The notes under the pieces: generated by a model
Databases searched by the model: none
The model's input: only the letters and a program-made list of their open reading frames with translations
What the model was told of the DNA's origin: nothing
Position numbers and translations under genes: made by a program
From: Planctomycetales bacterium
GTDB lineage: Bacteria > Planctomycetota > Planctomycetia > Isosphaerales > Isosphaeraceae
NCBI GenBank assembly: GCA_027449865.1
Contig: DAIDKV010000148.1
Span: 1-64,000 of the forward strand
DNA: 64,000 nucleotides
Reading direction: 5' to 3'
Part shown: piece by piece, positions 7,891 through 63,498 of the stretch
How positions within the stretch are numbered: the stretch's first letter is position 1
Layout of the letters: every line of letters starts with the position of its first letter

Positions 7891-8040
7891 TCAGGTCAGA
7901 ACCCACCAGATGGCGAATCCCAGGAAAACCAGCCCAGCGATCGCCCAGAGAACCGTCCGGACGACGATCCGATAGCCGGGGTCGAACGGGGGCACGTGAT
8001 GATGGGACGGATGGACAGCGCTCAGGTCATGGGCTCGCAT
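7891..8040 (-). CDS. Small single-TM protein, 49 aa
   Basis: The ATG at 8040 has a strong Shine-Dalgarno (aggaggtgact just upstream), much better than the longer start in the track. The product is MRAHDLSAVHPSHHHVPPFD followed by one transmembrane helix (VVRTVLWAIAGLVFLGFAIWW). The N-terminus is His-rich (HPSHHH). It lies immediately downstream of structured RNA copy A and upstream of the cytochrome c gene. I do not recognise the family. Its size and single helix suggest a small accessory subunit of a membrane complex, perhaps with the adjacent cytochrome; this is speculative. Confidence 0.7.
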   Translation of the reverse strand: MRAHDLSAVHPSHHHVPPFDPGYRIVVRTVLWAIAGLVFLGFAIWWVLT

Positions 8041-8082
8041 AGTCACCTCCTGCCCGCTCGTCGCGGGAGGAACGGCCGGCGC

Positions 8083-8168
8083 AAGAAGAAGCCCCGCTGA
8101 TGCAGAGATTGCACCACGGGGCCACCCTGGCCGGGATCGCAACACGCCCGTCGCGAGCCGTTGTTCAA
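8083..8168 (-). ncRNA. Structured RNA element, copy A of three
   Basis: About 86 nt on the minus strand. The 5' hairpin has outer stem CAAC/GUUG, inner stem GCUC/GGGC and loop GCGAC. An 18-nt linker (CGAUCCCGGCCAGGGUGG) follows. The terminator hairpin is GCCCCG / UGGUGCA / loop / UGCAUCA / CGGGGC and then TTCTTCTT. It shares 17 identical bases (cggccagggtggccccg) with copy B and the same fold with B and C, but different upper-stem sequences that still pair. The element ends 43 nt before the start codon of the 49-aa membrane protein. It could be an independent sRNA or a leader with a terminator. Confidence 0.6.
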
Positions 8169-8305
8169 CTCCTGATGATATCCGCTTCCCAGGATTTCGT
8201 CAATGCCGCGACCCGTAAATCGCCGTGTCCGAGAAGGCCTGAGATCTGGTTGGGAGGAAGGCGAATGACCCGGTCCTGGTCGACCGCCTTGCATTGTTCA
8301 ATCAA
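8165..8305 (-). CDS. Possible 46-aa ORF coupled to sixA
   Basis: A TTG codon at 8305 overlaps the sixA stop as TTGA, the arrangement of a translationally coupled ORF. The 46-residue translation begins MIEQCKAVDQDRVIRLPP and has ordinary composition, unlike the Arg-rich shadow frame upstream of it. Against it, the end of the ORF coincides with the promoter of RNA copy A. I do not recognise the sequence. It could be a real small protein, a decayed extension of sixA or chance. Confidence 0.25.
   Translation of the reverse strand: MIEQCKAVDQDRVIRLPPNQISGLLGHGDLRVAALTKSWEADIIRS
8175..8203 (-). promoter_or_regulatory. Promoter of RNA copy A (TTGACG-17-TATCAT)
   Basis: On the minus strand TTGACG (8203-8198) and TATCAT (8180-8175) are separated by 17 bp, close to the sigma-70 consensus. 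The predicted start of transcription is near 8168, just ahead of the 5' hairpin of copy A. Confidence 0.6.
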
Positions 8306-8826
8306 CGCCGCGGACGTGGATTCACGGCCGAGAGTCGTCGAATCAGCCGGGGCGTCGCAACCCAGTCCAGCTCGAATCGATCTGGGCCGCCGGAGAGCGG
8401 ACGAAGTGCGGCGATCCCGCCCTTTTTCAGCTCGCAGACCGTCGCAGACGAGCCCTCGCCGGCGACCAAAAGCGCGATCAGGTCGGAGAGGGCTGGGTTG
8501 TGACCAACGATCATCAGCCGGGTCTCGCGTCGACTGCGAAGCCAGTCTCGGATTGCCCGCGGATCGGTGCCCGATTGCAGGACGTCGTCCACTTCCACAA
8601 GGCCGAAAGCCCCCATCGACTCGGCGACGATCTCTGCGGTTTCGCTCGCGCGAGGCAGGGGACTGGTGACGATCCGATCGAGTTCCAGGCCAAGCCGGCT
8701 CAGTCCGCGGCCGATCTCTCGTAGGCGTTTTCGGCCCTTCGGGGTGAGTCGGCGTTCTGCGTCGTCTATGCCGGGGGTCCCCGGGTCCACCGCGATTCCG
8801 TGCCTCAAAATGTAGAGCGTTTCCAT
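8302..8826 (-). CDS. sixA: SixA-like phosphohistidine phosphatase
   Basis: A 174-residue histidine phosphatase superfamily member. The catalytic RHG is at the N-terminus (METLYILRHGIAV), followed by the conserved TPKGRKRLREIG, TSPLPRASETAEI and VGHNPALSDLI motifs that supply the remaining active-site Arg and His. This short form matches SixA, which removes phosphate from phosphohistidine (for example HPt domains or PTS proteins). The track's longer start is rejected because conservation begins at METLYILRHG (ATG 8826). The adjacent plus-strand gene is a phosphoribosyltransferase; there is no evident operon partner. Confidence 0.88.
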   Translation of the reverse strand: METLYILRHGIAVDPGTPGIDDAERRLTPKGRKRLREIGRGLSRLGLELDRIVTSPLPRASETAEIVAESMGAFGLVEVDDVLQSGTDPRAIRDWLRSRRETRLMIVGHNPALSDLIALLVAGEGSSATVCELKKGGIAALRPLSGGPDRFELDWVATPRLIRRLSAVNPRPRR

Positions 8827-9071
8827 CCGCGATGACTCCCATCTGCCCAGGCCGCTGCTTTCTCGCATTCGACGTGGAGCACCCAGCCTTTGGCTTTCCT
8901 GAGATCCTTCGGTCACTCGGCGTCGGCCTGAGATTCTCAACCCACGGGCCTTGTCGAAATAATTCACCCGCCTGGCCTTCATCGAGGGCAGCCGATCATT
9001 GCGATTTTCCATCCCGCGATCGATCTCAGCAAGGTGGTCTTCCGGGTCATTCACTTCCAAAGAAATGCCTC

Positions 9072-9099
9072 TTGCAATACTACCCTGAATCTTTATACT
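9072..9099 (+). promoter_or_regulatory. Promoter of RNA copy B (TTGCAA-16-TATACT)
   Basis: TTGCAA at 9072-9077 and TATACT at 9094-9099 are 16 bp apart. The predicted transcription start is near 9106, 7 nt before the 5' hairpin of copy B. Confidence 0.6.
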
Positions 9100-9105
9100 G
9101 AAGAA

Positions 9106-9187
9106 ATGTCAAGTCGCTCTCGACAGGGCGACGCGATGGCGGCCAGGGTGGCCCCGGCATGTGCTTGCCACATGTTCGGGGTTTTTT
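9106..9187 (+). ncRNA. Structured RNA element, copy B of three
   Basis: About 82 nt. The 5' hairpin has outer stem GUC/GAC, inner stem GCUC/GGGC (9116-9119 with 9126-9129) and loop UCGACA. The linker is 19 nt and includes CGGCCAGGGUGG. The terminator has base CCCCG/CGGGG, upper stem CAUGUG/CACAUG, loop CUUGC and a run of six T. It lies 63 nt upstream of the phosphoribosyltransferase start on the same strand. The rest of the 8827-9249 gap shows no gene. No known RNA family is recognised. Confidence 0.65.
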
Positions 9188-9249
9188 CGTGCGCTCTGAC
9201 TGTTCCGAGCCACCAGGGCACTCGGCTCTGTGAGGGGCGGGAGGAAATC

Positions 9250-9912
9250 ATGTTCCATAACCGTCAGGAAGCCGCCCGGCTACTGGCGCGGCGATTCGAT
9301 GGCCGCGACTTACGCGACCCTTTGGTCCTGGCGATCCCACGTGGTGGCCTGGCGACCGGGGCCGTGCTGGCCCGGGAACTGGATGCCGAACTCGATGTCG
9401 TTCTCTCTCGCAAGCTTCGAGCCCCGTTTCAGCCTGAGTTGGCGATCGGCGCGGTCGGGGAGGACGGCCAGATTTACCTCGATCCGACCGCGGAGAAACG
9501 CCTCGATCTCAGCGACGAGTACCTCTCGGGCGAGGTCGCCCACCAACTTGGTGAAATCGCTCGACTGCGGACGCTGTTCCGCGCGGTCCGGCCCCAGGCA
9601 GACATGGAAGGCCGATCGGTCATTGTCACCGACGACGGAATCGCGACCGGCGCCACCATGATCGCCGCCCTCGAAACGGCCCGAGTGAATCACCCCTTCG
9701 AACTCATCGTAGCCGTTCCCGTCGCCTCTCCAGACCGGATCTGGGAAGTTCGTCGGCGCTGCGACGAACTGATCTGCCTCCTGTCACCTCGATCCTTCTG
9801 GGCCATCGGTCAGGTCTATGAAAATTTCCAGCAAGTTCAGGACGAAAAAGCAGTAAGGTTGCTCCGCGCCGTGAATTCGACACCTCGGAATTCGGCTCCG
9901 TTGTCCTCATAG
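9250..9912 (+). CDS. Phosphoribosyltransferase-domain protein
   Basis: A 220-residue protein of the predicted type I phosphoribosyltransferase group (COG1926-like). The PRPP-binding signature VIVTDDGIATGATM lies near residue 125. The N-terminal FHNRQEAARLLARRF and IPRGGLATGAVLARELDAELD segments are typical of the group. ATG 9250 has a good Shine-Dalgarno (gggaggaaatc); the track's earlier start at 9034 would run through the promoter and terminator of RNA copy B. The substrate of this family is uncertain, so no specific base is assigned. If copy B is a leader, it would control this gene. Confidence 0.88.
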   Translation: MFHNRQEAARLLARRFDGRDLRDPLVLAIPRGGLATGAVLARELDAELDVVLSRKLRAPFQPELAIGAVGEDGQIYLDPTAEKRLDLSDEYLSGEVAHQLGEIARLRTLFRAVRPQADMEGRSVIVTDDGIATGATMIAALETARVNHPFELIVAVPVASPDRIWEVRRRCDELICLLSPRSFWAIGQVYENFQQVQDEKAVRLLRAVNSTPRNSAPLSS

Positions 9913-61929: not shown

Positions 61930-61958
61930 TTGACTTCAGGTGCGTCCATGTGTTGAAT
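61930..61958 (+). promoter_or_regulatory. Promoter of RNA copy C (TTGACT-17-TTGAAT)
   Basis: TTGACT (61930-61935) and TTGAAT (61953-61958) are 17 bp apart; the -10 matches the consensus at four of six positions. The predicted start is near 61965, 6 nt before the 5' hairpin. Confidence 0.5.
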
Positions 61959-61964
61959 AAGATA

Positions 61965-62046
61965 GTCTCCGTCGGCTCATGCCGGGCTGACAGAATTGGT
62001 TACGATGGCCCCGCCGTGCGAACCTTCGCATGAGCGGGGTTTTTTC
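61965..62046 (+). ncRNA. Structured RNA element, copy C of three
   Basis: About 82 nt. The 5' hairpin is outer GUC/GAC, inner GCUC/GGGC (61975-61978 with 61984-61987), loop AUGCC. The linker AGAAUUGGUUACGAUGG (17 nt) leads to the terminator: CCCCGC/GCGGGG base, UGCGA/UCGCA upper stem with loop ACCU, then six T. The final 15 bases (cggggttttttcgtg) are identical to copy B. The nearest downstream gene is the trypsin-like protease (62377). The 61857-61929 and 62047-62376 stretches show nothing else convincing. Confidence 0.65.
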
Positions 62047-62376
62047 GTGATTTCCCTTCCATGTTTTGCCGGAGGGGCGAGCATCTGGGATCGTCCCACG
62101 GGGATGAATCTCGATGGCGGCCATGGCAGCCGCGCAAGGTCTCGCGGAAATCCGATGGATTCGATCCTCCCTGGAGATGGCACCATGTTCGCGCCTGGCC
62201 GGATCGTTGAACTTCTGCGCCCGGGATTCACCGCCCCTGCGAGAAGGGCCAGGCAGGCGCTACCGGGGAAATGCTGGCGGATGCGGCTCTCCGCCTGTCG
62301 ATCGGGTCTCCGGAGACTACAGACCTGTTCGTCCGGATCACCCCGAAGGCGATGCAGCCTTGCGAGGGCGACGTCG

Positions 62377-63498
62377 ATGTTCCGCCCCTGCCTCGACAGG
62401 CTGGAGTCGCGGAAGGTTTTTTCCCTGGCTCCGGTACCGGCGAATGCGCCTTTCCCCTTCACGGCGATCGTTCAGCTCGTCGCCACCTTCCCCAATGGCG
62501 AGGTTGACACGGGCTCGGGCGTGCTGGTGGACAGCAACCATGTGCTGACCGCCGGCCACATGGTTTATCAGTATCACGACGGAGGATTCGCGACGAGCCT
62601 CGTGGCGACTCCCGAGATGAGCGGCCCAGGCCAACCCTTTGGCCAGGCTTCCGCGACCATTGTGAGGACGCCCGTGGAGTGGCAGAATTATAGCCGAACC
62701 CACTCCGGTGATCTGGTCGGCTACGACTCCTTCGATTACGGCCTCATCACGCTGAACTGGCCGATCGGCGATGAGACCCACTGGATGTCTTTCGGTTATG
62801 ACAACAACGGCAATACCTTCGCTCCCGGGACTCGCTTCGAAACAGCCGGCTATCCCGGAACGAATGGATATTCCGGCCGGCGCCTGTATGACTCGGCTGG
62901 TCCGATCGACGGACTTTCGCGAAGCGGAAATGCGCTCCTCTATCAGCAGAAGAACATCACGGTCTGGGCAGGGCAGAGCGGAAGCCCGGTCTGGTCCACC
63001 TCGAACGGTGTGATCTACGCAATCCAGTCGGGCGGAGGGCTCGGCTCACCCACCAGCGTGAACGACGCCACCCGGATCACGCAGAGTGTTTTTGAGATGC
63101 TTCAGAGCTGGATCTCGGCCGATCCCCCGTCGCCGATGCCCATCTCTACCCTGACTCCTGCCCCGCCGAAAGTTCTGGTGATCGGCCCCGTTTCGCACGC
63201 CAGGACCGGAATCCGCTCGATCCAGATCCAGTTCAGCGAGCCGCTGAGCCCCCGATGGGCAATCCATCCTCATCTGTACGATGTGCTGGCCATGCGGACG
63301 AGATCGGTCCACCGGCAGAAATACACCAGGGACGCAAGGCTGCCGATCCGAAAAATCGTCGTCAATGGTCAGGCGGACAGGGTGACGATCGAGCTGGCCA
63401 GACCATACCGAGGGGAAGTCGAGATCATCGTCCATCCAGGGATCGTGGCTGCGCGGGGCGGGGTGAGTCGGGTCTCGTATGCGGGTTTACTCCATTGA
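62377..63498 (+). CDS. Exported trypsin-like (S1/V8-type) serine protease
   Basis: A 373-residue protease. The triad is visible: His in VLTAGHMVY (near residue 75), Asp in YDSFDYGLI (near 120) and Ser in GQSGSPVWS (near 195). The start is chosen at ATG 62377, giving MFRPCLDRLESRKVFSLA, the planctomycete exported-protein motif; ATG 62185 with a ggagatgg Shine-Dalgarno is the alternative. After the protease domain a spacer leads to a beta-rich C-terminal domain of about 110 residues (KVLVIGPVSHARTGIRSIQIQFSEPL). It is closest to V8/glutamyl endopeptidases, but P1 specificity is uncertain. Confidence 0.85.
   Translation: MFRPCLDRLESRKVFSLAPVPANAPFPFTAIVQLVATFPNGEVDTGSGVLVDSNHVLTAGHMVYQYHDGGFATSLVATPEMSGPGQPFGQASATIVRTPVEWQNYSRTHSGDLVGYDSFDYGLITLNWPIGDETHWMSFGYDNNGNTFAPGTRFETAGYPGTNGYSGRRLYDSAGPIDGLSRSGNALLYQQKNITVWAGQSGSPVWSTSNGVIYAIQSGGGLGSPTSVNDATRITQSVFEMLQSWISADPPSPMPISTLTPAPPKVLVIGPVSHARTGIRSIQIQFSEPLSPRWAIHPHLYDVLAMRTRSVHRQKYTRDARLPIRKIVVNGQADRVTIELARPYRGEVEIIVHPGIVAARGGVSRVSYAGLLH

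Follow-up and report, generated by a model that had tools for sequence, protein, structure and literature searches.

ANTAR-directed antitermination follows a characteristic layout, in which one loop motif occurs twice and the second occurrence lies on the terminator (PMC3369931; structure in PMC8934654). The loops of known ANTAR RNAs comprise six bases, the first being A and the fourth G (PMC3369931, PMC8934654, PMC8164766), and Met172 of the protein has been described as indispensable to RNA binding and as a possible determinant of loop size (PMC8934654). The planctomycete elements described here are likely to be 5' leaders of a related kind, namely ANTAR-directed antiterminators that are off by default, with the reservation that protein binding, antitermination, the nature of the signal and the direction in which it acts are all inferred.

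The window, by which we mean the whole 64,000-nucleotide stretch of DNA that was analysed, contains three copies of the element (A, B and C). Each has the same order of parts: a sigma-70-type promoter, hairpin P1, a linker, hairpin P2 (GGYY-N5-RGCC), a terminator and a U-tract. In all three copies the 5' arm of the terminator opens with the final two C residues of P2. The parts and the genes behind them are as follows.

8175-8203, minus strand: copy A promoter, from reading of the sequence, with -35 box TTGACG (8203-8198), a 17-nt spacer and -10 box TATCAT (8180-8175)
8140-8163, minus strand: copy A hairpin P1, with outer stem CAAC/GUUG, inner stem GCUC/GGGC and loop GCGAC (8154-8150)
8120-8132, minus strand: copy A hairpin P2, GGCC-AGGGT-GGCC
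8083-8121, minus strand: copy A intrinsic terminator and U-rich tract, with base CCCCG/CGGGG (8121-8092)
7891-8040, minus strand: gene behind copy A, encoding a membrane protein of about 50 aa without a Pfam match
9072-9099, plus strand: copy B promoter, with -35 box TTGCAA (9072-9077), a 16-nt spacer and -10 box TATACT (9094-9099)
9113-9132, plus strand: copy B hairpin P1, GTCGCTC/GGGCGAC, with six-base loop TCGACA (9120-9125)
9141-9153, plus strand: copy B hairpin P2, GGCC-AGGGT-GGCC
9152-9187, plus strand: copy B intrinsic terminator (9152-9181) and U-tract (9182-9187)
9190-9194, plus strand: copy B TGCGC motif just 3' of the U-tract, role unknown
9250-9912, plus strand: gene behind copy B, encoding a phosphoribosyltransferase-domain protein (Pfam PF00156, E 7e-13)
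61930-61958, plus strand: copy C promoter, with -35 box TTGACT (61930-61935), a 17-nt spacer and a weak -10 box TTGAAT (61953-61958)
61971-61991, plus strand: copy C hairpin P1, with loop ATGCC
61998-62010, plus strand: copy C hairpin P2, GGTT-ACGAT-GGCC, GU pairs included
62009-62045, plus strand: copy C intrinsic terminator and U-tract
62185-63498, plus strand: gene behind copy C, encoding a trypsin-like protease (PF13365, E 3.7e-9 on frame 61996-63498; start codon inferred)

The P1 loop has six bases in copy B compared with five in the copy B orthologues L007 and L008. Copies A and B (8083-9188) form an opposite-orientation pair, as do elements at L010:1494-1977 and L225:3755-4087; pairs of elements are often opposed in this way, some 0.2-1 kb apart.

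Pattern counts within the window gave only a weak excess (3 copies compared with 0.58 or 0.28 expected from shuffles), and the reality of the family is settled not by these counts but by genome-wide and comparative evidence. A search with a pattern based on the terminator added two sites in the window's own genome, of which L002 shows the full architecture, and one or two in each of four sister genomes. At L001 (contig 107 of genome G000) the terminator pattern alone matched, with an E value of 2.2 under the second model below, and this site is not counted. A first covariance model (R1), built from two copies, copy C and one lying outside the window, scored copies A and B at E = 4.6e-5 and 8.6e-6 over the whole 8.48-Mb genome and returned 19 copies at E < 0.01 there. 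A second model (R2), built from 21 hand-anchored sequences (alignment A6) with copies A-C in the seed, returned 20 copies from the same genome at E < 1e-3. Across Isosphaeraceae, R2 matched 29 of 45 genomes and 15 of 21 genera, about 275 elements in total, with a maximum of 43 in genome G013; a class-wide search of 398 genomes added 13 genomes from three other families at 1e-4. The elements form a large leader family, with about 20 members in their own genome and few in other Planctomycetia.

The original prediction, made from the sequence alone, had placed three copies where they are listed above and with the same order of parts, and this held, both in the sequence and in the covariance-model search. 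Its description of a three-copy family requires correction to a genome-wide leader family. Its statement that the family was not recognised was fair, as Rfam holds no match: at the gathering threshold, Rfam 15 matched a tRNA alone in the window and offered no family for the elements, and a permissive search around copies A and B reached at best 22.5 bits of the 46 needed (E 0.32).

Covariation in P1 and the terminator supports a selected structure. Among 21 sequences, 91.2% of cells were paired and compensatory changes occurred in 12 of 22 pairs, and none of 500 shuffles reached either value. Among 102 distinct sequences, the paired fraction was likewise 91.2%, compared with 78.8% in shuffles, no shuffle being equal to it; compensatory changes occurred in 17 of 20 pairs, doubly changed cells numbered 252 compared with 70 expected, and slid-register controls gave 35-60% paired. 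It should be noted that the model was used to fit the 102-sequence alignment, a procedure that favours this result. The P1 stem comprises about 7 bp and is separated from P2 by a linker that is mostly 7-10 nt long and variable in sequence. The original prediction had claimed a selected structure with covarying stems, which held in both alignments, and a fixed GCUC/GGGC inner stem in P1, which held only in part, since this stem is strongly conserved and not invariant over the 102 sequences. Its checks had included a search for homologues and an analysis of covariation, and both came out in its favour.

Two other arrangements were considered for these parts and set aside. An antiterminator formed by the P1 GGGC with the terminator GCCC is disfavoured because the P1 GGGC varies together with its own partner (GGGA in L009; GGGU in L014 and L019) while the terminator is fixed. 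A leader peptide with ribosome-mediated attenuation is disfavoured by inspection, as the reading frames through the copies are inconsistent.

The two hairpins carry similar small loops. Among 99 unique elements, the loop has five bases in 88 for P1 and in 93 for P2, and position 3 of these five-base loops is G in 86 of 88 and 93 of 93, respectively. Position 1 is A in 82 of the 93 P2 loops, yet in only 33 of the 88 P1 loops, which begin with G or A; position 4 of the P1 loop is A in 74 of 88. The P2 stem has 4 bp in 79 of the 93 pentaloop cases, and its 3' arm, GGCC, includes the first two C residues of the terminator base. P2 was paired in 96% of cells in the 21 sequences, and over 99 sequences its register was 93% paired compared with at most 54% when shifted. 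Because the terminator locks its 3' arm, P2 covaries only weakly within the family (0.859 compared with 0.807 for the pair beside the loop; 35 of 2000 shuffles), and a distant copy, L241, keeps the pairing with other bases (GGGUU-GUGAG-AACCC). The 5' arm lies outside both P1 and the terminator, and its conservation therefore needs another reason.

Minimum-free-energy folds paired the terminator base in 93 of the 99 elements, and forcing P2 cost a mean of 7.1 kcal/mol. Termination should therefore be the ground state, and a factor would be needed to hold P2. The original prediction had suggested that GGCC-N5-GGCC could act as an anti-terminator overlapping the terminator; this is supported by the pairing of P2 and by the overlap, antitermination itself remaining an inference. 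The loop motif common to the two hairpins, and the ANTAR regulator that tracks the elements, were absent from it.

The elements satisfy two criteria for ANTAR target RNA: they have two stem-loops whose stems are no shorter than 3 bp and whose linker falls in the 2-25 nt range, and their P2 overlaps an intrinsic terminator, as in the transcription-attenuating type. The hexanucleotide-loop criterion is not met, the 99 elements having five-base loops as counted above, nor is the criterion of A1 and G4 in the loop, as the G stands at position 3. Having failed the hexaloop and G4 criteria, the elements are not filed as canonical ANTAR RNA; a pentaloop variant of the ANTAR leader is probably the best label, with binding and readthrough inferred.

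Enrichment of promoters upstream is likewise an observed feature of the family: a promoter, called where 8 or more of the 12 consensus bases agree, precedes 86% of elements compared with 5.7% of random segments. The -10 box mostly lies 8-14 nt ahead of the modelled P1 stem, which places P1 at or near the 5' end of the transcript. At the other end, TGCGC(C) directly follows the U-tract in 47 of 99 elements, compared with 3.2 for shuffled sequence and a single case in a control window; within the window it occurs at 9190-9194 on the plus strand and at 8079-8084 on the minus strand. Pairing of TGCGC with the upper stem of the terminator was considered and rejected, since these stems vary (CACAUG in copy B) and TGCGC is constant. 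The motif could conceivably be a pause signal for RNA polymerase.

A matching ANTAR protein, a further criterion for ANTAR target RNA, was sought by listing every ANTAR domain encoded in the 45 genomes of the family, from which 79 reading frames were collected. These fall by similarity into two groups, group I (n = 37) and group II (n = 42, mostly NasT-like). Group-I ANTAR and the element were both present in 28 genomes and both absent in 14, with the element only in 1 and the protein only in 2 (Fisher p = 1e-8), so that the criterion is satisfied in 28 of the 29 family genomes that carry elements. Contrasts exist within single genera: in g2, G007 has both and G005 and G006 have neither, and in g17, both occur in G027 and G028, neither in G029 and G030, and the protein alone in G031 and G032, no element having been found there. 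In G017, which is 81% complete and has 12 elements, group-I ANTAR was not found. Outside the family, a group-I-like ANTAR of at least 104 bits was present in 13 of 13 element genomes, and one of at least 100 bits in 4 of 67 element-free genomes; one of these four exceptions has a weak element match near the ANTAR gene (L205, E 0.04).

Physical linkage was also observed. An element lies within about 10 kb of 16 of 37 group-I genes compared with 0 of 42 group-II genes, and in a second collection an element lies within 8 kb at 20 of 38 planctomycete group-I loci compared with 0 of 42 other ANTAR loci. The two collections share genomes, and their counts are not independent; kinship among genomes inflates all co-occurrence and linkage p-values. 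In the cultured Isosphaeraceae member Singulisphaera acidiphila DSM 18658, the ANTAR gene has elements at most 7 kb away. The regulator on contig 46 of G000 scores 85.6 bits for Response_reg and 74 bits for ANTAR (PF03861; cut-off 27.3). Nothing relevant on planctomycete ANTAR, on pentaloops or on a globin kinase together with ANTAR was found in the open-access literature searched.

In EutV numbering, taken from 6WSH, group-I proteins carry Phe164, Gln168, Ser172, Asp/Glu173, Asn175 and Lys177. Position 172 is Ser in 34 of 37 group-I proteins and Asn or Ala in certain distant ones, compared with Met172 in EutV, NasR and Rv1626. Ser at this position might fit a smaller loop, an inference from sequence without binding data. 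As a unique mark of group I, Ser172 is weakened: group-II planctomycete ANTARs have Gln, so that absence of Met is not confined to group I, and three group-I outliers have Arg.

The operon on contig 46 of G000 encodes a Protoglobin-HisKA-HATPase protein, a REC-REC protein, a REC-kinase and the REC-ANTAR protein, and three elements adjoin it. A protoglobin protein is present in 7 of 37 group-I loci compared with 0 of 42 group-II loci, most flanks being short, and input by O2 or NO is possibly not general. In G037 and G020 an element stands upstream of the globin sensor itself. The content of the downstream genes was read from 86 proteins, chosen by a simple start-site rule under which some assignments may be wrong. 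These include BON (8), Hsp20 (8), ECF sigma (5), Usp (4), phosphoribosyltransferase (4), and more rarely pyruvate:ferredoxin oxidoreductase (PFOR, 3) and protoglobin (2), with single cases of phosphoketolase (XFP), FBPase, a pyruvate-phosphate-dikinase-type protein (PPDK), acetate kinase and others; reading of the sequence adds an HdeD-like protein after L009. The set reads as one of stress and anaerobic functions, without a background rate for comparison. The sigma-70 (ECF-type) genes lie downstream at L083, L118, L176, L180 and L183, and the regulon may possibly feed a second layer of control through such factors. A protein of about 86-103 aa carrying the motif HHR(D/N)FPE recurs directly behind several elements (L113:8556-8813 on the minus strand, L007, L008, L010, L178:3097-3405 and the start of L118:10798-11697); the one member tested had no Pfam match.

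In the mechanism that we propose, RNA polymerase would start a few bases ahead of P1, and by default the terminator would form and an RNA of about 80 nt would be released. An active group-I ANTAR response regulator would bind the five-base loop of P1 and then that of P2, and P2, once held, would capture the first two C residues of the terminator base, leaving the terminator malformed and the downstream gene read. The regulator would be the one encoded outside the window, on contig 46 of G000, behind a protoglobin-domain histidine kinase and further receiver and kinase proteins, a position which suggests O2, NO or another haem ligand as the likely input. The output would be a dispersed stress and anaerobic regulon that in some genomes includes the sensor operon itself. 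A bolder reading, to which we incline by a narrow margin, is that a distinct ANTAR subclass reads five-base loops, its Met172 plug replaced by a small residue, and controls 10-40 leaders across the genome by antitermination, as a planctomycete regulon for responses to oxygen, NO and stress, with global stress control at termination and not at promoters.

Other explanations would have to account for the same observations. The elements might be stand-alone genes for trans-acting small RNAs that lie upstream of other genes by chance, and it is true that promoter and terminator bracket an 80-nt unit; however, twenty copies per genome with functionally coherent genes behind them, a P2 that overlaps the terminator and has a loop resembling that of P1, and the tracking of an antiterminator protein make this very unlikely. 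We consider it less probable still that they are riboswitches or leaders that sense a small molecule directly, without a protein. A 5' structure followed by a terminator ahead of genes would suit such a leader, and no Rfam class is needed for it, but apart from two very small hairpins and a variable linker nothing like a conserved aptamer core is present, the downstream genes have no metabolite in common, and the association with ANTAR would be left unexplained.

The elements might also be put-like processive antitermination RNAs, or targets of another RNA-binding protein, with the ANTAR gene a mere member of the regulon. The position of P1 at the 5' end of the transcript, the TGCGC after the U-tract, which hints at contact with elongating polymerase, and the elements that precede sensor operons too all speak for this possibility. 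However, the ANTAR subtype tracks presence and absence of the element across genomes and families, and the twin-loop layout matches ANTAR sites (PMC3369931), so that we regard this explanation, too, as very unlikely.

If ANTAR-directed antitermination is confirmed, planctomycetes, whose regulation is poorly known, would gain a large RNA-level stress and anaerobic regulon with both sensor and effector named. ANTAR recognition would then reach beyond hexaloops, which would account for these RNAs being overlooked by any search based on hexaloops. The natural variants make the proposed role of Met172 in loop size (PMC8934654) directly testable, and a cultured host, Singulisphaera acidiphila DSM 18658, is at hand.

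The elements exhibit considerable similarities to the targets of EutV (Enterococcus faecalis eut), NasR (nasF) and AmiR, but there are also clear differences. Shared features are two small hairpins with a short linker (PMC3369931, PMC8934654), a conserved G in both loops with A first in the P2 loop, a P2 within the 5' side of an intrinsic terminator, and a REC-ANTAR regulator. Unlike those targets, the planctomycete elements have five-base loops with G3 and not six-base loops with A1 and G4, a P1 loop that starts with G or A, a P1 stem of about 7 bp, and 20 (up to 43) dispersed leaders per genome; unlike the EutV, NasR and Rv1626 proteins, the cognate ANTAR has Ser (in some cases Asn or Ala) in place of Met172. 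Actinobacterial ANTAR RNAs likewise have dual stem-loops, a linker of 2-25 nt and many sites per phylum, whereas they were selected by hexanucleotide loops, a criterion that the planctomycete elements would escape (PMC8164766). The mycobacterial DosR hypoxia regulon combines a haem-based sensing kinase with dispersed genes that include Usp and alpha-crystallin (Hsp20). By functional analogy alone, with no homology claimed, the planctomycete system resembles it in its haem-based kinase and its dispersed Usp and Hsp20 regulon; DosR, however, binds promoter DNA, whereas the control proposed for planctomycetes is exerted at transcription termination.
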